Part shown: piece after piece, positions 8,768 to 36,459 of the stretch | How positions within the stretch are numbered: position 1 is the stretch's first letter | Layout of the letters: each line of letters begins with the position of its first letter | From: Bradyrhizobium canariense | GTDB lineage: Bacteria; Pseudomonadota; Alphaproteobacteria; Rhizobiales; Xanthobacteraceae | Direction of reading: 5' to 3' | NCBI RefSeq assembly: GCF_019402665.1 | Contig: NZ_VSST01000034.1 | Span: 62,001-126,000, forward strand | DNA length: 64,000 bases | Position numbers and translations under genes: made by a program | The notes under the pieces: model-generated | What the model was told of the DNA's origin: nothing | What the model saw: the letters and a program-made list of their open reading frames with translations, nothing else | The model's database searches: none

Positions 8768-8848
8768 CGCGCGCTAGCCATGCAGCCTGCGCATTTGGCG
8801 GCGGCCTGGCCCTGTGATCAATTGCGCGCGCCGCAAATGAGGTAGTCC

Positions 8849-10654
8849 ATGGCCAGCATCGTCAATCCCGATCCGTTCACGACACGCCCCGAGATCGAAG
8901 GCACCTTCGGGGTCGTCGCGACCACGCACTGGATCGCGACCGCTATCGGCATGGCCATCCTGGAAAAGGGCGGCAATGCCTTTGACGCCGGCGTCGCCAC
9001 CGCTTTCACGCTCCAGGTGGTCGAGCCGCATCTGAACGGCCCCGGCGGCGACGTTCCGATCATCGTGCACGACGTGAAACGCGGCCGCACCGAGGTGATC
9101 TGCGGCCAAGGTCCGGCACCGGCCCGCGCCACCATCGCGCATTACAAGAGCGAAGGCCTCGACATGGTGCCCGGCACCGGCCTGCTCGCGGCCTGCGTCC
9201 CCGGCACCTTCGAATCCTGGATGATGCTGCTGCGTGACTACGGCACGATGCGCGTGCGCGACGTGCTGGAGCCCGCGATCTCCTATGCGCGCGACGGCTA
9301 TCCGCTGGTTGAGCGCGCCTGCGCCACGATCCAGACCGTCGAGCAATTATTCCGCACGCACTGGCCGACATCAGCCGCCGTCTATCTCCCAAACGGCGAA
9401 GTGCCAACACCGGGAACGCTCTTCACCAACAAGACACTTGCGGCGACCTACGCACGGATCCTGAGCGAAGCCGAAAGCGGCGGCGGCGGTCGGGACGCCG
9501 AGATCGAGCGTGCACGCAAGGCCTGGTCGCAAGGCTTTGTCGCGGAAGCCATCGACAAATTCTGCCGGACGCAGGAGGTGATGGACGTTAGCGGCTCGCC
9601 GCATCGCGGTGTGCTGTCGGCCGATGACATGGCGCGGTGGCAGCCGACGGTCGAGGCCCCGCTCACCTACGATTATGGCCGCTACACCGTCTGCAAGGCC
9701 GGCGTTTGGAGCCAGGGCCCGGTGACGCTGCAACAGCTCGCGCTGCTGAAGGGCTTTGCGCTCGATGGGCTCGACCCGACAGGGCCGGAATTCATCCATC
9801 TCCAGATCGAATGCGCCAAGCTCGCCTTCGCCGACCGCGAAAAATTCTACGGCGATCCCAAGTTCAGCGAGATCCCGATCGGAACGCTGCTGTCGGATGC
9901 CTACAACAACGAGCGCCGCAAGCTCGTCACCGACGAGGCCTCGCTCGATCTCCGGCCCGGTGCGATCGAGGGCTTTGGCGGCGTGGTCAAGCTGCGCCGC
10001 GCCGAGGGCCAGCGCGAGGCTGTCGGCGCGCTCGGCGCCGGTGAACCGACGGTGGGCCGCTTCGGCGAGGTGCGCGGCGACACCGTGCATTTCGACATTA
10101 TCGACAAGGCCGGCAACATGGTGTCGTCGACTCCGTCGGGAGGCTGGCTGCAATCCTCACCTGTCATTCCCGAGCTGGGTTTCTGCCTCGGCAGCCGCGC
10201 ACAAATGTTTGATTTGGAAGAGAATCAACCGAGCTCGCTCGCGCCGGGCAAGCGGCCGCGCACGACGCTGTCGCCGAGCATGGCGTTGCGGGACGGCGAG
10301 CCATATCTCGCCTGGGGCTCGCCGGGCGGCGACCAGCAGGATCAGTGGATCACGCAGTTTTTCCTGCGGCACGTCCATTGCAACCTCAATCTCCAGGAGG
10401 CGATCGACGCCCCGGCCTGGCATTCCGAACATTTCCCGATCTCGTTCTGGCCCCGCACCGCGCGCCCCGGCGTGCTCGTGGTCGAGAACCGCGTGCCGAA
10501 GGCGACGATCGAGAATCTTCGCGAACGCGGACATATCGTCGAGGTCGGTCCCGACTGGTCGGAAGGCCGCCTCACCGCGGCTTCGCGCGTCGGTCCGCGC
10601 CGCCGGGCTGCCGCCAATCCGCGCGGCATGCAGGGCTACGCCGCAGGGCGCTAG
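8849..10654 (+). CDS. Gamma-glutamyltransferase family protein (Ntn-hydrolase proenzyme)
   Basis: 601-residue GGT-family enzyme that hydrolyses or transfers gamma-glutamyl groups from glutathione or gamma-glutamyl amides. The large-subunit hallmark GGNAFDAGVA followed by VVEPHLNGPGGD is at residues 32-68. The autoprocessing/nucleophile Thr is Thr412 in DTVHFDIIDKAGN, equivalent to the Thr of the E. coli TTH site, although TVH replaces TTH. Small-subunit motifs STPSGGW and WGSPGGDQQ follow. There is no signal peptide, unlike periplasmic E. coli GGT, so this looks cytoplasmic and would act on substrates after import. GAGGTAG precedes the ATG. Relatives of this branch include YwrD-like GGTs and some acylases, so exact specificity is open. 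Confidence 0.9.
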   Translation: MASIVNPDPFTTRPEIEGTFGVVATTHWIATAIGMAILEKGGNAFDAGVATAFTLQVVEPHLNGPGGDVPIIVHDVKRGRTEVICGQGPAPARATIAHYKSEGLDMVPGTGLLAACVPGTFESWMMLLRDYGTMRVRDVLEPAISYARDGYPLVERACATIQTVEQLFRTHWPTSAAVYLPNGEVPTPGTLFTNKTLAATYARILSEAESGGGGRDAEIERARKAWSQGFVAEAIDKFCRTQEVMDVSGSPHRGVLSADDMARWQPTVEAPLTYDYGRYTVCKAGVWSQGPVTLQQLALLKGFALDGLDPTGPEFIHLQIECAKLAFADREKFYGDPKFSEIPIGTLLSDAYNNERRKLVTDEASLDLRPGAIEGFGGVVKLRRAEGQREAVGALGAGEPTVGRFGEVRGDTVHFDIIDKAGNMVSSTPSGGWLQSSPVIPELGFCLGSRAQMFDLEENQPSSLAPGKRPRTTLSPSMALRDGEPYLAWGSPGGDQQDQWITQFFLRHVHCNLNLQEAIDAPAWHSEHFPISFWPRTARPGVLVVENRVPKATIENLRERGHIVEVGPDWSEGRLTAASRVGPRRRAAANPRGMQGYAAGR

Positions 10655-11374: not shown

Positions 11375-12359
11375 ACCCGAGCCCGCTCATCGAGATCAGC
11401 GATCTGCGCATTCGTTTTCACGACGACGACGGCCGCCTCACCTACGCGGTCGACGGCGTCGATCTCAGCGTCGCCCATGGCGCGACGCTCGGCCTCGTCG
11501 GCGAATCCGGCTGCGGCAAGAGCGTGACGTCGCTGGCGATCATGGGCCTGCTGCCAAAGCAGAGCGCGGATATCTCCGGCGCGATCCGCTTCGACGGCTT
11601 CGACCTGCTTAAGACATCGGACCAGACGCTGCGCGACCTCCGCGGCAACCGGCTCGCGATGATCTTTCAGGAGCCGATGACTTCGCTCAATCCGAGCTTC
11701 ACCATCGGCGACCAGATCGTCGAGACGATTCTGCGCCACCGCGGCGGTTCGCGCAGGAGTGCGCGCGAGCGGGCGATCGATCTGCTGCGTCGCGTCCACA
11801 TCCCCTCGCCCGAGCGGCGGATCGACGAATATCCGCACAAGCTCTCCGGCGGCATGCGTCAGCGCGTCATGATCGCGATGGCACTCGCCTGCGACCCGCG
11901 GCTGCTGATCGCGGACGAGCCAACCACCGCGCTCGATGTCACGCTGCAGGCGCAGATCCTGGAGCTGATGCGCGAGTTGAAGGCGGCGAGCGGCGCGGCC
12001 ATCATCCTGATCACCCACGATCTGGGCGTCGTCGCCGAAGTCTGCGACGAGGTCGCGGTGATGTATGCCGGCGAGATCGTCGAGCGCGCGCCGGTGGACG
12101 AGCTGTTCTCAGCGCCGCAGCATCCCTACACCGTCGGCCTGCTCGGCTCGATCCCGCGGCTCGACCATCGCGCCGAACAGCTCGCCACGATCGAGGGCAT
12201 GGTTCCGAACATGATGCAGCCGCCTGCGGGATGCCGCTTCGCCGCACGCTGCCCCTTCGTGCTGGACGCCTGCACCAAGGCGCCGCCGCGGCTGGTCGAA
12301 ATCAGTCCCGGCCACCTCTCGCGCTGCATCCGCGCGCCGCTCGAACGTCTGGTGTCGTG

Positions 12360-12360: not shown

Positions 12361-13460
<1,100 letters not shown>

Positions 13461-15984: not shown

Positions 15985-16875
15985 ATGACCGATGCCGCCC
16001 TGCCCGCCGCCGCTCCTATCGCGCAAGCTGACGAGCTGGACAGCCCGGCGCGTCGCGCCCGGCGGCGCTTGTTCAAACGCAAGGCCGCAGTATTCGGACT
16101 TGTCATGATCACCTTGTTCGTCGGCTTCGCGCTGCTCGCGCCGTTCGTCGTGCCCTACGATCCGATCGCGACGAGCTGGGGCCTCGTCCGCAAGCCGCCC
16201 ACCGCGGCACACTGGTTCGGCACCGACGAGCTCGGTCGCGACATCCTGAGCCGCGTCGTCTACGGCGCGCGCGCGTCCCTGCTCGCGGGCCTCATCTCGG
16301 TCGCGATCGCGCTGGGCGTCGGCGTTCCGCTCGGCCTGCTCGCCGGCTATCGCGGCGGCTTCGTCGATGCGCTGATCAGCCGGATGACCGACGCGATGCT
16401 GGCCTGCCCATTCCTGATCCTGGCGATCGCGCTCGCCGCATTCCTCGGTCCGAGCCTCGGCAATGCCATGATCGCGATCGGCATCTCGGCAACCCCGATC
16501 TTCATCCGCCTGACCCGCGGCCAGGTGTTGAACGTCAAGGCCGAGGACTATGTCGAGGCGGCGCGCGCGCTCGGCAACCCGCCGTGGCGGATCGCGTTTT
16601 CGCACATCCTGCCGAACATCCTGCCGGCGCTGCTGGTGCAGGCTACGCTATCGATTGCCGCCGCCATCATCGCCGAAGCCGCGCTGTCCTTCCTTGGCCT
16701 CGGCCAGCAGCCGCCGGCGCCGTCCTGGGGCAGCATGCTCAACGCAGCGCAGCGTTTCCTGACCCAGGCGCCCTGGATGGCGATCTGGCCGGGGCTTGCG
16801 ATCTTCCTCGTGGTGCTGTCGCTGAACCTGCTCGGCGACGGCCTACGTGACGCGCTCGATCCAAGGCAGCGTTAG
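15985..16875 (+). CDS. ABC transporter permease, DppC/OppC type (second importer)
   Basis: 296-residue permease. The first helix is KAAVFGLVMITLFVGFALLAP, followed by the family segment WFGTDELGRDILSR and the EAA loop EDYVEAARALGNP. The C-terminal LSFLGLGQQPP and LNLLGDGLRDALDPRQR segments are canonical. The start at 15985 is preferred over an open frame reaching 15934, which lies within the upstream permease gene. It is the last gene of the plus-strand importer/GGT cluster; a palindromic repeat element follows and the next gene is convergent. Confidence 0.92.
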   Translation: MTDAALPAAAPIAQADELDSPARRARRRLFKRKAAVFGLVMITLFVGFALLAPFVVPYDPIATSWGLVRKPPTAAHWFGTDELGRDILSRVVYGARASLLAGLISVAIALGVGVPLGLLAGYRGGFVDALISRMTDAMLACPFLILAIALAAFLGPSLGNAMIAIGISATPIFIRLTRGQVLNVKAEDYVEAARALGNPPWRIAFSHILPNILPALLVQATLSIAAAIIAEAALSFLGLGQQPPAPSWGSMLNAAQRFLTQAPWMAIWPGLAIFLVVLSLNLLGDGLRDALDPRQR

Positions 16876-29875: not shown

Positions 29876-30037
29876 GGCCGGAAACAAAGATGTCGAAAAC
29901 AACCCCATGCACAGTAGAGGGCCGTCGGCGGAAGATTGCCTTATGGATCCGCATAACCATTTGACAAGGGGAGGCAAATCGACGGGAGCGCGCGCCTCGC
30001 CAACGGCCAATGCCGAAGCAGCAATGGAGTGACGAAG

Positions 30038-31252
30038 ATGAGCTCCTCGGTCATCGATTTCCTCGCAACCGAAGCACGCTTTGGCGCTCGCAACTACGAG
30101 CCGATCGGGGTCGTCCTGTCGCGCGGCGAAGGTGTCTGGGTGTGGGATACCGAGGGCAACCGTTATCTCGATTGCCTCTCGGCTTATTCGGCTCTCAACC
30201 AGGGCCACTGCCACCCGAAAATCCTGGCCGCGATGGTCGAACAGGCGAGCCGGCTTACATTGACCTCGCGCGCCTTTCACAACGACCAGCTCGCCCCGTT
30301 CTACGAAGAGATCGCGGCGTTGACCGGCTCGCACAAGGTGCTGCCGATGAACAGCGGCGCCGAGGCGGTCGAAAGCGCGATCAAGTCGGTGCGGAAATGG
30401 GGCTACGAGGTGAAAGGCGTGCCGGACGGCCAGGCCGAGATCATCGTCTGCACCAACAATTTCCACGGGCGCACGCTGGGCATCGTCGGTTTTTCAACCG
30501 AGCCCGAGACCCGCGCCCATTTTGGGCCGTTCGCGCCGGGCTTCAAGATTATCCCGTTCGGCGACGCCGCGGCGCTGGAAGAAGCGATCACGCAAAACAC
30601 CGTCGCCTTTCTGGTCGAGCCGATCCAGGGCGAAGCCGGTGTCATCATTCCTCCACCCGGCTATTTCACGGGGGTGCGCAAGCTCTGCACGGCCAACAAC
30701 GTCATGCTGGTGCTCGACGAGATCCAGACCGGGCTCGGCCGCACTGGCAAGCTGCTTGCCGAACAGCACGAAGGCGTCGAGGCTGACGTGACGCTGCTCG
30801 GCAAGGCCTTGTCCGGCGGCTTCTATCCGGTGTCGGCTGTGCTCTCGAACAACGACGTGCTCGGGACTTTGCGACCCGGGCAACACGGCTCAACCTTCGG
30901 CGGCAACCCGCTCGCCTGCGCGGTCGCGCGCGCGGCACTGCGCGTGCTGGTGGAAGAAGGCATGATCGAGAACGCAGCCACGCAAGGCGCGCGCTTTCTC
31001 GAAGGCTTGAAAGCCATCCGCGCCAACACGATCCGCGACGTGCGCGGCCGCGGCCTGATGCTGGCGGTCGAGCTGCATCCCGAAGCCGGCCGCGCGCGCC
31101 GCTACTGCGAGGCGCTCCAGGGCAAGGGCATCCTCGCCAAGGACACCCATGAGCACACCATCCGCATCGCCCCGCCGCTGGTGATCACCAGCGCTCAGGT
31201 CGACGGGGCACTGGAGCAGTTCGCGACGATCCTGACGCAGGATTTCTCCTAG
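30038..31252 (+). CDS. rocD: Ornithine aminotransferase (ornithine--oxo-acid transaminase)
   Basis: 404-residue PLP enzyme of class III aminotransferases that converts L-ornithine and 2-oxoglutarate to glutamate semialdehyde and glutamate, in arginine/ornithine catabolism and proline interconversion. Diagnostic OAT features are [16 protein letters not shown] near residue 50, [21 protein letters not shown], the Asp of [13 protein letters not shown] and the PLP Lys256 in [15 protein letters not shown]. Start 30038 has GGAG 8 bases upstream; GTG at 30029 is possible. It stands alone. A TTATG/CATAA inverted element and a TTGACA lie in the 162 bases upstream but give no clear promoter call. Confidence 0.92.
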
Positions 31253-31360
31253 AGCCTGCCTGCGTCGGAAGATCGCAATTGCCGGCTGCGACCAACGACG
31301 AACGATTCCGCCACCTGTGCGTTGAGAATTGTGGGCGATATCGAGCTGGGAGCGACGAGC

Positions 31361-33208
31361 ATGCTTCCGCATGGCGTTTGCCTGACGGCCTTTTTGGTTG
31401 GTGCCTCGATGCTGGCGGCGAGCGTCAGCGCGTCCGCTCAGGGACACGGAAGGGGTGGACCACCCGGGCCGGCCGCAGCGCCGGCAGTTCGGCCAGCCGC
31501 ACCACCTGCCATGGCCCGTCCGCCGGCGCCGCCGGCCATGGTGCGCCCCGCCGCCCCCGCATTCCATCCACCTTCCATGCCGCAGCGACCGGCCATGGCG
31601 CCGCATCCGGCGCCGCACCTCGCCTCACCGCCCCAGCGTCCGGCCCCCCACTTCGCTGCACCGCCGCGGGCTGCCCCGCACGTGGCGGCGCCGCGACCTG
31701 AATTCCATCGGGCGCCGCCTGCACCGCAACGTCCGGCCATGGGGCCGCGGCCGACGCCGCACATCGCCGCCCCCTTGCGCCCCAGCGGACCGCCAGCCGC
31801 GCGCGAGCGGCTGTCGCGACGGGAGCAGATCGATCAACGCGCGCAACAGCATCACCTGCAGATCCAGCAGCGCCAGCAGGTGGTGCAGCAGCGGCAGCGC
31901 GAGGTGCTGTCGCGCCAGACCGCGGAGCGCCAGACCCGAATCGATCGGCTGCAGCAGCGCGTGCAGCAATTGCAGTCGCAAAAGCCTGAAGGTGCGCGGG
32001 CGCAACGCCAGCAACAACGAATGCTCCAGACGCAAAACCGCTTGCTCCAGCGTGAGCAGCGTGTGCAGCAAACCGATCTGGCGCGCCAGCAGCGGCTGGG
32101 ACAGGCTCCCGCGGCAACTGCTGCAGCGGCTGCCGCAGGGCGAGCCGCCGGGCGCGGGCGATTTGCCGAGCGTTTCCGCGAGCAGGCCACTTCGCAAACC
32201 CAGGCGGCTCTCATCACCCGCCAGAGCGGCTGGGCGCCCCGGCAGGCCTGGCGCCACCGCCACCCCGCGGCCTTCGTGGCATGGCTTGGGCCGGTGTTCT
32301 GGCCCTACGCCTATTCCGACATTTTTGACTACACCTTCTGGTCCTATGCCTACGAGCCCGGCTATTGGGCGTACGCGTATGACGACTTCGTCGACACCGT
32401 GTTCTGGGGTGGTGACAGCCCCTATTCCGCCTATGCCAGCACCACCAACCCGTATGACTATCCGCAAGCCGGCGGAGGTTCCCGCGCTCCTCGAGGCGCC
32501 AGCGTGAGCCCCCAGACGCTGCGGCAATTGTGCGGCACACCGGACAAGGGCGTCACCGCCTGGCCGCTTGCCGATATCGCGCGGGCGGTACGGCCGACAC
32601 CGGAGCAACGCACGCTGCTCGACGAGCTGAAGACCGCGGCGGCCAACGCTGCCGGTGTGTTCAAGGATTCCTGCGCAGAGACGTATGCACTGACTCCACC
32701 CAGCCGCCTGCGCGCAATGATGAACCGCATCAGCGCGACGCTGGAAGCCGTCAAGATCGTGCGGCCGGCACTGGAGAATTTTTACAACTCACTCAGTGAC
32801 GAGCAGCAGGCGCGCTTCAACGCGCTCGGCCCCAATGTCGGCGAGCGCTCCCTGCCGCAGCAAGCCAGTGCCCAAACCACTGCCGACGGCTGCGGCGATC
32901 CGAAGTCCGGCTTGACCCAGTTACCGATCCAAAGGATCGAGGCAGTGCTGCACCCCGCAGGCAAGCAGAAGGAAGCGCTCGACCGCCTCAGCGAAGCGAC
33001 GGCCAAGGGCGTCGATCACCTGCAGGCGGCCTGCCCGAACGATGTACCGCTGACGCCGGTCGGACGGCTGGAAGCGATGCAGCACCGGCTCGAAGCCATG
33101 CTGACGGCCGCCAAGCTGGTCGAACCGACTCTTGACGAGTTCTATGCCACGCTGAGCAGCGAGCAGAAGGCACGCTTCAACGCGCTGGAACAGGTCGCAA
33201 GCCCGTGA
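31361..33208 (+). CDS. Exported Pro/Ala- and Gln/Arg-rich protein with two LTxxQ-type (Spy/CpxP-like) domains
   Basis: 615-residue exported protein. Residues 1-27 are a signal peptide (VCLTAFLVGASMLAASVSASAQ). Residues about 30-165 are low-complexity Pro/Ala/Met. Residues about 165-260 are rich in Gln and Arg and probably a coiled coil (QQRQQVVQQRQREVLSRQ). An aromatic stretch follows (FWPYAYSDIFDYTFWSYAYE). The C-terminus carries two tandem repeats of about 100 residues, each ending in an LTxxQ-like motif: LSDEQQARFNAL and LSSEQKARFNAL, as in Spy-type periplasmic chaperone-like proteins. GGGAG precedes the ATG. A mutated copy of its last 18 codons lies 1.1 kb downstream. Function is unproven; a periplasmic stress or envelope role is the family-based guess. 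Confidence 0.8.
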   Translation: MLPHGVCLTAFLVGASMLAASVSASAQGHGRGGPPGPAAAPAVRPAAPPAMARPPAPPAMVRPAAPAFHPPSMPQRPAMAPHPAPHLASPPQRPAPHFAAPPRAAPHVAAPRPEFHRAPPAPQRPAMGPRPTPHIAAPLRPSGPPAARERLSRREQIDQRAQQHHLQIQQRQQVVQQRQREVLSRQTAERQTRIDRLQQRVQQLQSQKPEGARAQRQQQRMLQTQNRLLQREQRVQQTDLARQQRLGQAPAATAAAAAAGRAAGRGRFAERFREQATSQTQAALITRQSGWAPRQAWRHRHPAAFVAWLGPVFWPYAYSDIFDYTFWSYAYEPGYWAYAYDDFVDTVFWGGDSPYSAYASTTNPYDYPQAGGGSRAPRGASVSPQTLRQLCGTPDKGVTAWPLADIARAVRPTPEQRTLLDELKTAAANAAGVFKDSCAETYALTPPSRLRAMMNRISATLEAVKIVRPALENFYNSLSDEQQARFNALGPNVGERSLPQQASAQTTADGCGDPKSGLTQLPIQRIEAVLHPAGKQKEALDRLSEATAKGVDHLQAACPNDVPLTPVGRLEAMQHRLEAMLTAAKLVEPTLDEFYATLSSEQKARFNALEQVASP

Positions 33209-33386
33209 GGACGAGGTCGCGTTCTCTCGGCATTCTCTCGTGGCCATTTGCGCAGCAGCCGAACGACGTGGTGTGACCGCAATCGCCCTGCCCTGCTTCA
33301 CAGCTCGACGAGAGCATGCGTGTCCAGGCCACTTCTCTCTGTGAGACGTGCGGTGGCGGAATGCAAACGACAGCCTTGCTCCGTCC

Positions 33387-33619
33387 TCACGTGGCCGAAA
33401 TCGCCTTCGGTCCAGCGTCATTCGTGTTTGTGATTGATCGAGGCCGCTCTATCTCATTCGAGCTAATGGCGTTGCATTGTTGGAAGTAGGAAGACAGCTC
33501 AAGATGGGCCAGGTGATCCCAGTATTCTGCTTCTGCGAGCAGCTTGCATTTATGCTGTTGTACGCGGCCTGTTGCCGGCACAGCGAACTTATCGCACGCA
33601 AGCGTCGCACCTTCTCCAT
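33387..33619 (-). pseudogene. Small helical protein gene broken by a frameshift
   Basis: An ATG at 33619 is preceded by GGGAGGG at 6 bases, a better ribosome site than most genes here. It opens MEKVRRLRAISSLCRQQAAYN, after which the frame turns Ser/Cys-rich. In the next frame the DNA then reads KLLAEAEYWDHLAHLELSSYF, a Leu/Ala/Glu helical pattern that continues the first part naturally. The joint lies near 33550-33560. Together they look like one of the roughly 55-60-residue hypothetical proteins common in Bradyrhizobium (recalled, not searched). The second frame ends at 33387. A sequencing error is the alternative. Confidence 0.5.
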
Positions 33620-33783
33620 TGCGAACCCTCCCTTCACGCTTGTTTGCTTACAAGCGCATTTGGGTTGTCACAGCTTCGCAGATTGAATTGACGAGTGACA
33701 TCCCGGTGTTTGACGGTCATCGATGATAGCGCAATCGTTTGACTTTTCACCGAATAGCAAGGCGAACGATGCGGGGCAGCAAC

Positions 33784-33809
33784 AAGGGCTGCGAAGAATG
33801 ACAGCCCTT
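33784..33809. other. Hairpin with 8-bp arms
   Basis: AAGGGCTG (33784-33791) and CAGCCCTT (33802-33809) pair perfectly around a 10-base loop. No T-run follows on either strand. It lies in the gene-poor region; role unknown. Confidence 0.35.
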
Positions 33810-33873
33810 CGGTCTGCGCTCTAGGCACACATCAGCAAAGCGCGCATCGGACGATAGGTCGCCGGCGCGTTCC

Positions 33874-33905
33874 ATTTAGGACTGAAATTATTTAGGACTG
33901 AAATT
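33874..33905. repeat. Perfect tandem duplication of a 16-mer
   Basis: ATTTAGGACTGAAATT occurs twice back to back (33874-33889 and 33890-33905) with no mismatch. It is AT-rich and atypical for the window, consistent with a recent slippage event or a footprint within the scar region. Confidence 0.85.
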
Positions 33906-34008
33906 TTAATAGTGAGCGGCCCTTCCTGGATGTGGTTAGCTCGTGACCAGACCGGACCGGACAAAAAATTTGATCCCAAAACTATTTGGTCCCGGCCCAT
34001 TGGACTGC

Positions 34009-34031
34009 AAGACCGCGTTCGTGCGGTCTTT
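34009..34031 (+). terminator. Terminator-like hairpin with short T-run
   Basis: AAGACCGC (34009-34016), loop GTTCGT, GCGGTCTT (34023-34030), then T, CC, TT. The 8-bp GC-rich stem followed by T residues resembles a rho-independent terminator on the plus strand, yet no intact plus-strand gene ends just upstream. It may end a small RNA or be a relic. Confidence 0.4.
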
Positions 34032-34108
34032 CCTTACAACCGCAATAAAATCAGCCGCGTCCGACCACGCCGAGGCCTTTGGCAAAAGTGGCCAGCCTTA
34101 CCACGCAC

Positions 34109-34140
34109 AATGGCCCCGACGATTGCACGTCGGGGCCATT
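34109..34140. other. Strong hairpin, 13-bp perfect stem
   Basis: Arms 34109-34121 and 34128-34140 (AATGGCCCCGACG and its complement) around a 6-base loop. The stem is very stable but no T-run follows on the plus strand (CAAGATCG). It could be part of a structured RNA, a protein-bound palindrome, or a repeat-element relic. Confidence 0.5.
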
Positions 34141-34321
34141 CAAGATCGTCAGGCAGGGTACATCCGTCGTGCCTGCCGATCGTTGATGCCACCAATTACC
34201 TCATCCGATCTGGCGCAGACTGTGGCGCGGCTGCGGCATCGGGGTGGTGATATTCTGCCTGAAAGCTGAAGGCTGTCCACCTCTCGTTGGTACTACTCCC
34301 AACTAGTTCGCTGCTCTGCAG

Positions 34322-34387
34322 GAGTTTGTGCGGAGCACCGAGCAGAAGGCGCGCTTCAACAGGCTGCAGCAGGTAGCAAGCCCGTGA
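34322..34387 (+). pseudogene. Degenerate duplicate of the 3' end of the LTxxQ-domain gene
   Basis: The frame reads EFVRSTEQKARFNRLQQVAS-P-stop, against EFYATLSSEQKARFNALEQVASP-stop at the end of the gene at 31361-33208. Over the last 18 codons I count 7 base differences in 54, and two codons are missing just before. No start or upstream portion of the gene survives, so this is a non-functional remnant of a second copy or of a rearrangement. Confidence 0.8.
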
Positions 34388-34405
34388 GACCAGCGTTCGT
34401 TAAAG

Positions 34406-35269
34406 CTACACCACCGTCTTGTGCCGCGCGATGCAGGTTTGCAGCACCTCATCCATCGGTTTCCTCCACCAGTCGTTGGAGAAGATTTCGATCTCCGAAT
34501 AGCCGGCAAAGCCCTGCGCTTCGACCGCTTCGCGCACCGATTTGATGTCGATCACGCCGTCGCCCATCATGCCGCGGTCGTTGAGAATGTCCCTGGTCGG
34601 CACCAGCCAGTCGCAGACATGGAAGGCAAGCAGGCGATCTCGGCCGGCGCGCGCGATCTGCCCCATCAGCTCCGGATCCCACCAGATGTGATAGACGTCG
34701 AGCGCGACGCCGAGCATGCCGCTGCGATCAGGGTCGAGCCGGTCGCAGATGTCGAGCGCCTGCTTCGTGGTGTTGACGCAGGCGCGGTCCGCGGCATAGG
34801 CCGGATGCAGCGGCTCGATCGCCAGCGGCAGCTTGGCCTGTTTGGCGTAATCGAGCATTTCGGCGAGCGCTTCCTCGACCTGCGTCCGCGCGCCGGCGAT
34901 GTCCTTCGACGCCTCGCTGCCCGGCCGCGAATATTGCGGCAGGCCGCCGACGACGAGAACGATGCAGGGGGCTCCCAGCGCCTTGGCTTCGTCGACGCAG
35001 CGCCGGTTGTCGTCGCGCACCTCGCTCCGGCGCGATGCGTCGGAGGTGAACATGCCGCCACGGCAATAGCCCGACAGGTCGAGACCGGCATCGCGCACCG
35101 CACGCGCGGCGCGCTCGAGGCCGACGGCTGCGACCTGGTCACGCCAGGGATCGATGGCGCGGATGCCGTGCCTGGCACAGGCGTCGATGATCTCGACGAG
35201 ATCAGCCTGCTTGCGGATTGTCGCCGTGTTGAGCGACAGCCAGCGATGGTCGGACGAAAAATCACGCAT
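34406..35269 (-). CDS. Sugar phosphate isomerase/epimerase family protein (xylose isomerase-like TIM barrel)
   Basis: 287-residue TIM-barrel protein of the AP-endonuclease-2/xylose isomerase-like superfamily, which isomerises or epimerises keto sugars and related acids using a divalent metal. The expected ligands appear in order: Glu in LAIEPLHP, Asp in VALDVYHIWWD, His in LLAFHVCDW and Glu in YSEIEIFS near the C-terminus. The N-terminus lacks a signal peptide. Its ATG shares a base with the stop of the upstream DUF993 gene (TGATG), making it the last gene of the seven-gene catabolic operon that begins at 41855. Substrate unknown. Confidence 0.88.
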   Translation of the reverse strand: MRDFSSDHRWLSLNTATIRKQADLVEIIDACARHGIRAIDPWRDQVAAVGLERAARAVRDAGLDLSGYCRGGMFTSDASRRSEVRDDNRRCVDEAKALGAPCIVLVVGGLPQYSRPGSEASKDIAGARTQVEEALAEMLDYAKQAKLPLAIEPLHPAYAADRACVNTTKQALDICDRLDPDRSGMLGVALDVYHIWWDPELMGQIARAGRDRLLAFHVCDWLVPTRDILNDRGMMGDGVIDIKSVREAVEAQGFAGYSEIEIFSNDWWRKPMDEVLQTCIARHKTVV

Positions 35270-36459
35270 CAGGATTCGATTCCGCGCGTTGAGAGCACCG
35301 CCTTCATCCGCCGCGTCGCCAACTCCGGATCGGCGAGCAGCCCGGCCTTGTCGGCCAGCCGGAACAACTCGGCCAGATGCAGCGTCGAGCGCGTGCTCTC
35401 CTGCCCGCCGACCATGGTGAAGTGGTCCTGGTGACCATTGAGGTATGCCATGAACACCACGCCTGTCTTGTAGAACCGCGTCGGCGCCTTGAAGATGTGG
35501 CGCGACAGCGGCACCGTCGGCCCCAGCACGTCGTGGAAGCCCGCCTCATCACCAGCAGCCAGCCGCGACAAGGCGTAGGACGCCGCCGGCGCGATCGCAT
35601 CGAAGATCCCGAGCAGCGCGTGCGAAAAGCCCTGTTCGTCGCCGGCAATCAGCTCCGCATAATTAAAATCGTCGCCGGTGTACATCTTGATGCGCTTGTC
35701 GAGACGACGGCGCATGTCGATCTCGCGCTGCTTGTCGAGCAGCGAAACCTTGACACCGTCCACCTTGGCGGCGTTGCCGTTGATGATGGCGACCGCAATA
35801 TCCATTGCCTTGTCGAGATCGTTGGTGCCCCAATATCCCGTCAGCGCCGGATCGAACATGTCGCCGAGCCAGTGGATGATCACGGGCTCGCGAACCTGCG
35901 ACAGCACACGGTCATAGACCTTGGCATAATCGTCGGCGTTGCGGCCCAGCTTCGCCAGCGCGCGCGACGCCATCAATATGATGCGGCCGCCGACCTTCTC
36001 GACTGCCGATATCTGCTCCTCATAGGCGCGGATCACGTCGTCGAGATTCTTGGCGTCCTCGACCGCAAGATGGTCCGTGCCCGCTCCGGAAAACACCAGC
36101 GCGTTGCGGCGCTTGGCGGCGGACACCGAGCGCGTGATCAGCTCCAGCGAGGTCGGCCAGTCCAGCCCCATGCCGCGCTGCGCGGTATCCATGGCTTCCG
36201 CCACGCCGAGACCGAGATCCCAGATGTGCTCGCGAAAGGCGATGGTCTTGTCCCAGTCGACGGCAGCGGAGAGCCACGGGTCGTTGTCGGCAAAGGGATC
36301 GATCACGGTATGGACGGCGGAGAACGCAATGCGGTTCAGCGGACCCTCGAGCTTTGCGGGAAACGTTCGCGAGGCCGCGAGCCGGTAGGTCTCGATCGAG
36401 CGATCGGCCTTCGGCAGTTTGAGCGACAACGACAACATCGGCTGGACGGGCTTGTTCAT
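35269..36459 (-). CDS. DUF993 / dihydrodipicolinate synthase-like protein
   Basis: 396-residue protein of the DUF993 group, distantly related to the DHDPS/N-acetylneuraminate lyase aldolases. The Schiff-base Lys candidate is Lys237 in KVDGVKVSLLD, in the position of the DHDPS GxKxxS motif, and MYTGDDFN follows as in DHDPS MLSGDD-type segments. The usual catalytic Tyr (YNxP) is replaced by IHWLGDMFDP, so chemistry may differ. ATG 36459 is preferred: the open frame to 36507 runs into a palindromic repeat element. Upstream AGAGG supports this start. It overlaps the downstream isomerase gene by one base. Likely an aldolase or lyase step on a sugar-acid-like compound; this is inference. Confidence 0.82.
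   Translation of the reverse strand: MNKPVQPMLSLSLKLPKADRSIETYRLAASRTFPAKLEGPLNRIAFSAVHTVIDPFADNDPWLSAAVDWDKTIAFREHIWDLGLGVAEAMDTAQRGMGLDWPTSLELITRSVSAAKRRNALVFSGAGTDHLAVEDAKNLDDVIRAYEEQISAVEKVGGRIILMASRALAKLGRNADDYAKVYDRVLSQVREPVIIHWLGDMFDPALTGYWGTNDLDKAMDIAVAIINGNAAKVDGVKVSLLDKQREIDMRRRLDKRIKMYTGDDFNYAELIAGDEQGFSHALLGIFDAIAPAASYALSRLAAGDEAGFHDVLGPTVPLSRHIFKAPTRFYKTGVVFMAYLNGHQDHFTMVGGQESTRSTLHLAELFRLADKAGLLADPELATRRMKAVLSTRGIES

Follow-up and report, generated by a model that had tools for sequence, protein, structure and literature searches.

The interval between the LTxxQ gene and the neighbouring xylose-isomerase-like TIM-barrel gene (TIM) is a rearrangement hotspot in relatives of the Bradyrhizobium canariense genome considered here. 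In this genome the interval is closed by a second, diverged copy of the LTxxQ gene tail, found in a window that denotes the whole stretch of DNA analysed (64,000 nucleotides of contig NZ_VSST01000034.1). We hold it somewhat better than an even chance that units were gained in the clade of the window, that general recombination at gene tails followed, and that the repeat anchors an old unit at its right-hand end. The features concerned, in window positions, are as follows.

30029 to 31252, plus strand: AMT, a class-III aminotransferase gene forming the left flank (Pfam PF00202, E 2.2e-126); its 3′ tail recurs within units of relatives.
31322 to 33208, plus strand: LTxxQ gene, an open reading frame with two LTXXQ stretches (PF07813, E 5.2e-42); by our reading its probable start is the ATG at 31361, inside this frame.
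33151 to 33208, plus strand: proximal copy of the repeated gene tail (repeat search and identity count).
33209 to 33368, no strand: mid0, the left part of segment E, with 70-83% matches in many relatives bearing segment E.
33417 to 33646, minus strand: modA, a small gene, here a frameshifted copy recovered as two tblastn pieces; its core reads VEKVRRLRAM.SLCRQQAAYN...KWKLLAEAEYWDHL...QCNA, and the frame changes near 33548-33554.
33756 to 34105, no strand: mid1 spacer, with a tandem 16-base repeat at 33874-33905 (D19, repeat search) and a terminator-like hairpin seen by eye near 34009-34036.
34106 to 34320, minus strand: modB, kept in relatives bearing segment E and dispersed elsewhere in the genus; we read it as the 3′ end of a different gene, comprising its final ~22 codons, 3′ UTR and a terminator-like hairpin.
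34330 to 34387, plus strand: LTQt, the distal copy of the LTxxQ gene tail (repeat search and identity count).
34388 to 34405, no strand: junction of 18 bases between the tail copy and TIM, the same as at the shortest abutting sites.
34406 to 35269, minus strand: TIM, the right flank (PF01261, E 5.2e-39).

The first-pass annotation of this DNA had proposed that the 3′ end of the LTxxQ gene is duplicated, and this is borne out: the last 58 bases of the gene (33151-33208) agree with 34330-34387 at 50 of 58 positions in an ungapped alignment, against a best tail match of 32/58 in 1000 first-order Markov randomisations of the insert. Its count of seven differences in the last 54 bases was reproduced on recount; the similarity itself starts at 34330, not 34322, and needs no two-codon gap. 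The repeat search of the window returned the same pair as direct repeat family D1 (86%). The distal copy ends in the same TGA as the gene and lies 18 bases from the stop of the convergent TIM gene. The DNA between the copies (33209-34329) is, as the annotation had described it, AT-richer than its neighbours (55.6% G+C versus 68.5% in the LTxxQ gene and 66.1% in TIM), bears a strong hairpin (inverted repeat I3) and contains no recognised intact gene in this genome, the small minus-strand gene being frameshifted. The unit of the window carries neither a remnant of the AMT tail nor one of the TIM tail, nor the sequence X described below, and a search of Rfam 15 with positions 32500-35500 gave 0 matches up to E 1. 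A tRNA gene as attachment site was considered and discarded, the sole tRNA found in the window lying at 16148-16237.

Comparison across the genus reveals how variable this interval is. The segment was searched in 146 Bradyrhizobium genomes, 101 of which matched somewhere, and 80 stretches were taken; they were picked for matching the segment and are not a random sample. With the window included, the LTxxQ gene is present in 75 of 81 loci and absent in 6. The annotation had expected that an empty site in other strains would support an insertion and had named the same arrangement in all relatives as the case against it. Among the 73 loci that have both LTxxQ and TIM, 11 are empty, the two genes abutting (22-40 bases apart, measured between the LTxxQ stop and the TIM alignment), 28 contain segment E (modA or modB) and 34 something else; the arrangement is far from common to all, and cargo turnover between conserved flanks is high. 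Counted over the 80 named loci, 18 have segment E, 11 are abutting, 18 are other and 33 unclassed. By the same measure the distal copy of the window stands 22 bases from TIM, and this abutting distance (21-22 bases) is kept by the distal copies of the window, L036, L040, L065 and L068; the distal copy of L066, at 68 bases, is not at abutting distance. In the nearest relatives, B. canariense SZCCT0289, strain CSS354 and strain 132, the gene found upstream of AMT in the window adjoins TIM directly, AMT and LTxxQ being absent between them.

Extra LTxxQ tails number 24 and occur in 19 of the 75 loci, with 130 bases offered as query and hits to the domain repeat of the gene itself excluded. Their left edge is nearly fixed, lying 100-117 bases before the stop in 19 of the 24 and never further out (the other five, that of the window among them, are shorter), while their right edge lies anywhere between a few bases past the stop and the inside of TIM. 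All 19 loci fall within one 43-row clade (SH-aLRT 100; five flanking genes joined) of a quick tree with weak support on 16 of its 71 inner branches. Eight abutting genomes are nested in this clade and three others lie outside it. The nested sites form the pattern expected from clean loss between repeats; alternatively, they could be donor replacements or sites that were never occupied, as cargo moves sideways. The copy in the window did not arise recently from its own gene, for in 20 of the 42 other genomes of the clade an LTxxQ tail is closer to that copy than the gene of the window is, which upholds the age that the annotation had read from the divergence. Direct repeats and a regenerated gene end, as known from islands inserted at the 3′ end of a gene, are both present.

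Gene tails other than that of LTxxQ are duplicated as well. Several relatives show the order LTxxQ tail, TIM tail, then aminotransferase gene end, the repeats reaching 32 to 317 bases into TIM in several genomes. The joint TIM(..101)/AMT is found in L036, L038, L041, L042 and L043; that of L068 is different. Two or more copies of the AMT-LTxxQ spacer precede LTxxQ in L036, L038, L043, L046, L050, L053, L062 and L063, and L041, L042, L062 and L068 have the spacer again downstream of the gene. The order AMT-spacer-FBP-PFK-X-LTQt-TIMt/AMTt-spacer-LTxxQ is seen in L038, L043 and L152, and LTxxQ-TIMt/AMTt-spacer-other cargo-X-LTQt in L041 and L042, that is, both orders expected from a single crossover of such a unit. 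The whole LTxxQ gene lies in the first unit at some loci and in the second at others, and L036 and L151 carry, in our reading, three stacked units. In the cassette the 78-base sequence X immediately follows pfk, and by our count it adjoins an LTxxQ tail in 16 places among the 31 loci displayed; a dispersed repeat it is not, a 24-base piece with up to 3 mismatches giving 0 matches in its own genome. The units mostly consist of AMT tail, cargo, LTxxQ tail and TIM tail, and at least one of them may once have contained a whole LTxxQ gene.

Cargo varies between loci, and one cassette provides a clear case of exchange. A pair of genes of ~2.66 kb (FBPase_3 and PFK), situated behind the aminotransferase spacer, is common to 8 loci, and this FBP-PFK cassette has moved horizontally. 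It occupies this site in 12 of 195 genomes, that of the query included, the others being 95-97% identical to L038; copies elsewhere show 84-91% identity among the matches listed. Across the 12 loci the median third-position identity is 0.933 for FBP and 0.954 for PFK, against 0.762-0.860 for five flanking genes (each compared in 7-9 of the 12 loci), and in all 54 comparable pairs each of the two cassette genes surpasses all flanks. The cause is not that these genes evolve slowly: the same FBP and PFK genes located elsewhere in 9 genomes of the clade reach only 0.769 and 0.782, in species whose flanks are only slightly more diverged (TIM 0.738, versus 0.784 in the 12). Horizontal sharing of cargo, a mark of hotspots, is thereby found at this locus. 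Of 190 genomes of the genus, 83 contain PFK (PF00365), each with a single match, which in 12 of them lies in the cassette at this locus; for G187 this cassette is the only PFK match, and in the genome of the window (a 154-contig assembly) neither PFK nor FBPase_3 was found. A paper of 2006 mentions the presence of PFK (bll2850) in B. japonicum and proposes that sugar catabolism there differs fundamentally from that of fast-growing rhizobia (PMC1557990). That gene, bll2850, is probably cargo of this locus.

Segment E as it stands in the window is a worn relic. Its minus-strand gene modA keeps an unbroken 52-residue core in 28 of the 30 LTxxQ-locus loci examined, although a few of these 28 have a stop soon after the core; damage consists of the frameshift in the window, a locus with pieces only (L073) and a second copy in G144 that is split. 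Differences between modA copies amount to 0.059, 0.031 and 0.199 at the three codon positions, and their concentration at third positions marks modA as a real gene outside the window. The segment called decayed in the first-pass annotation is decayed in this genome, then, but not in the relatives. Database family matches to modA included none convincing enough to give it a name. The idea that modA is a self-moving element that duplicates gene ends was abandoned: of 13 copies elsewhere a direct repeat flanks 1 (L072), five of the 12 others having just 1.0-1.6 kb of flank. As for modB, its source gene has longer relatives at dispersed loci, and L074, where such a longer gene, modB and modA stand side by side, suggests where segment E was captured from. 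TIM runs toward modB, which may now end TIM transcripts. A role of modB as a structured RNA is unproven, the two conserved hairpins having a covariation term of only -0.09 and 4 of 60 base pairs changed on both sides.

The cargo was also surveyed for recombination enzymes. The intervals hold 196 open reading frames, 112 after removal of near-duplicates, of which 98 (63 + 35) were scanned, the 14 frames of the unbounded locus L113, those shorter than 90 codons and broken genes lying outside the scan. Among the matches listed are cyclases, ABC parts, hydrolases, a sulfate permease and mercury-type genes. No integrase appears among the matches listed for the 98 frames (Pfam, best 25 of 106 and 25 of 27 families), nor among the best 25 of 45 PHROGs families for the 63 frames (weakest E 3e-10), where one transposase is among the matches listed. 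A missed or broken recombinase among the cargo frames is possible.

From these observations the following course of events can be proposed. Units made of AMT tail, cargo, LTxxQ tail and TIM tail would have been gained and stacked between the AMT, LTxxQ and TIM genes in the clade of the window. One founding event would have left a tail copy beside TIM, and the shared left edge of the tails points to such a single event. General homologous recombination at the shared tails would then have produced tandem addition, swapping of cargo between species and clean deletion of cargo, single or double crossovers between units or with the chromosomes of other species giving insertion both upstream and downstream of LTxxQ, stacking, exchange and loss. 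The agent of adding, swapping and deleting was presumably recombination of the RecA type. What is left in the window would be one worn unit, segment E with a trimmed 58-base LTxxQ tail adjoining TIM, and the position of this unit and the state of its relatives make it a likely member of the series.

A purely integrase-free exchange can be put forward tentatively: units, possibly circles, ended only by gene-tail copies would be inserted upstream or downstream of LTxxQ by ordinary recombination, stacked and removed without a scar, and the phosphofructokinase of B. diazoefficiens would be one of their cargoes.

It is rather unlikely that an integrase-bearing element started the series, using the last ~115 bases of LTxxQ as attachment site, integrating at least once with regeneration of the gene end and later losing its integrase. 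The near-fixed left edge of 19 of the 24 tails would result from site-specific integration too; by eye, the insertion lies directly behind the LTxxQ stop codon in several genomes, and G144 and G118 each have one stacked tail copy identical to their own gene over 70 bases. Against it stand the lack of an integrase among the matches listed for the 98 cargo frames, the extension of the repeats into TIM, the duplication of AMT tails, the fact that a short attachment core explains neither the TIM nor the AMT tail duplications, and named cargo that consists of ordinary chromosomal genes. The annotation had suggested an old integration that regenerated the gene end, with the repeats acting as attachment sites. 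The form of that proposal survives in the 11 abutting sites, the whole gene and the shared left edge of the copies; the attachment-site part is disfavoured by the points just given. The genomic island SGI1, which a passage of PMC8409611 describes as integrating at the 3′ end of trmE, resembles this locus in that a gene 3′ end is the place of insertion and the gene stays whole, and differs from it in that here no integrase was found, the repeats enter the neighbouring gene and AMT tails are duplicated.

The other proposal of the annotation, a partial paralogue, would correspond to a second whole LTxxQ gene that arose by tandem duplication (AMT tail, LTxxQ, TIM tail) and then wore down until only its last codons were left, which we regard as doubtful. 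Tandem duplication between short homologies, with later loss, is a known process, and the TIM/AMT joints are what it would leave; the reciprocal retention of LTxxQ in first or second units agrees with it, as does one remnant of the gene body, a 55-base piece (80%, E 7e-8) that immediately follows the first aminotransferase of L062, in its first unit, and speaks for an eroded whole copy there. Yet L062 is alone among 7 enlarged AMT-LTxxQ intervals, and the 64 LTxxQ-TIM intervals yield no clear body piece, only a 23-base hit (L044, E 6e-4) and domain-repeat hits; the units hold other cargo, and erosion by chance would not leave the same 100-117 bases in as many as 19 of the 24 tails. Even so, the series may have begun with an integrase, or some lineages may have passed through a whole duplication that was then eroded. 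That segment E is simply a functional, vertically inherited locus whose gene was lost by mutation in the window, the repeated tail being a boundary only, is highly improbable: the unbroken modA core with its mostly third-position differences and the conservation of modB agree with it, but it leaves the tail copies, the TIM/AMT joints and the cargo turnover unexplained.

Recombination at gene tails carried by the units, as proposed here, would place the locus near a known type of hotspot. A passage in Oliveira et al. 2017 describes hotspots without mobile-element genes, for which recombination at flanking core genes was proposed (PMC5635113). As in that description, the flanks here are fixed, the cargo is variable and shared horizontally, and no integrase was found; unlike in that description, the cargo is bounded by flanking gene tails that recur as copies within the locus itself, from which stacked units and clean junctions result. 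The locus fits these hotspots, the addition being that the gene tails are carried in the units. A literature search gave no description of this locus among the matches listed, which is no proof of its absence in print. The LTxxQ-TIM interval illustrates in detail a possible way for a hotspot to operate without a known integrase, gene-tail copies serving as portable homology, and shows a gene of central metabolism, PFK, as the cargo of such a hotspot.

In relatives of the window, the interval between the LTxxQ gene (31322-33208, plus strand) and the gene for the TIM-barrel protein (TIM; 34406-35269, minus strand) holds a variety of cargo. In genome G070, a second class-III aminotransferase gene lies between LTxxQ and TIM (locus L105, 12270-13481, minus strand) and is 86% like the window's aminotransferase. 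Mercury-type genes (MerR, MerT and an HMA domain) are the cargo at L041 (11476-12678) and L042 (5894-7072), an assignment to loci made by reading the sequences. In genome G140, a 55-base piece of the LTxxQ body (L062, 15560-15613, minus strand) directly follows the first aminotransferase, within the decayed first unit. At three loci that TIM places among the window's close relatives (L169, L170 and L245), the aminotransferase and LTxxQ genes are missing from the site, and TIM is adjoined by the next upstream gene instead.

Two components of the window's own segment recur elsewhere:

33417-33646, minus strand: modA, a small-protein gene with a KWKLLAEAEYWDHL core
34106-34320, minus strand: modB, a conserved gene end with its 3′ UTR and hairpin

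The modA family, also found at L041, L064, L002 and other loci, received no convincing name from Pfam, NCBIfam or PHROGs, and has several paralogues in the window's own genome. Another copy, at L072, is surrounded by direct repeats of ~110 bases (8792-8899, 12140-12247 and 13199-13309; 92% and 74%). The modB piece (L116-L132) is scattered through the genus; in several loci it is attached to a gene whose sequence is of the GRAAERMLLDGEP type.

The window genome is without the FBPase_3-phosphofructokinase cassette present at L038 (4712-7140) and in 11 more genomes, all at one site. These 11 copies share 95-97% identity with that of L038, whereas the flanking genes are ~89-94% alike.
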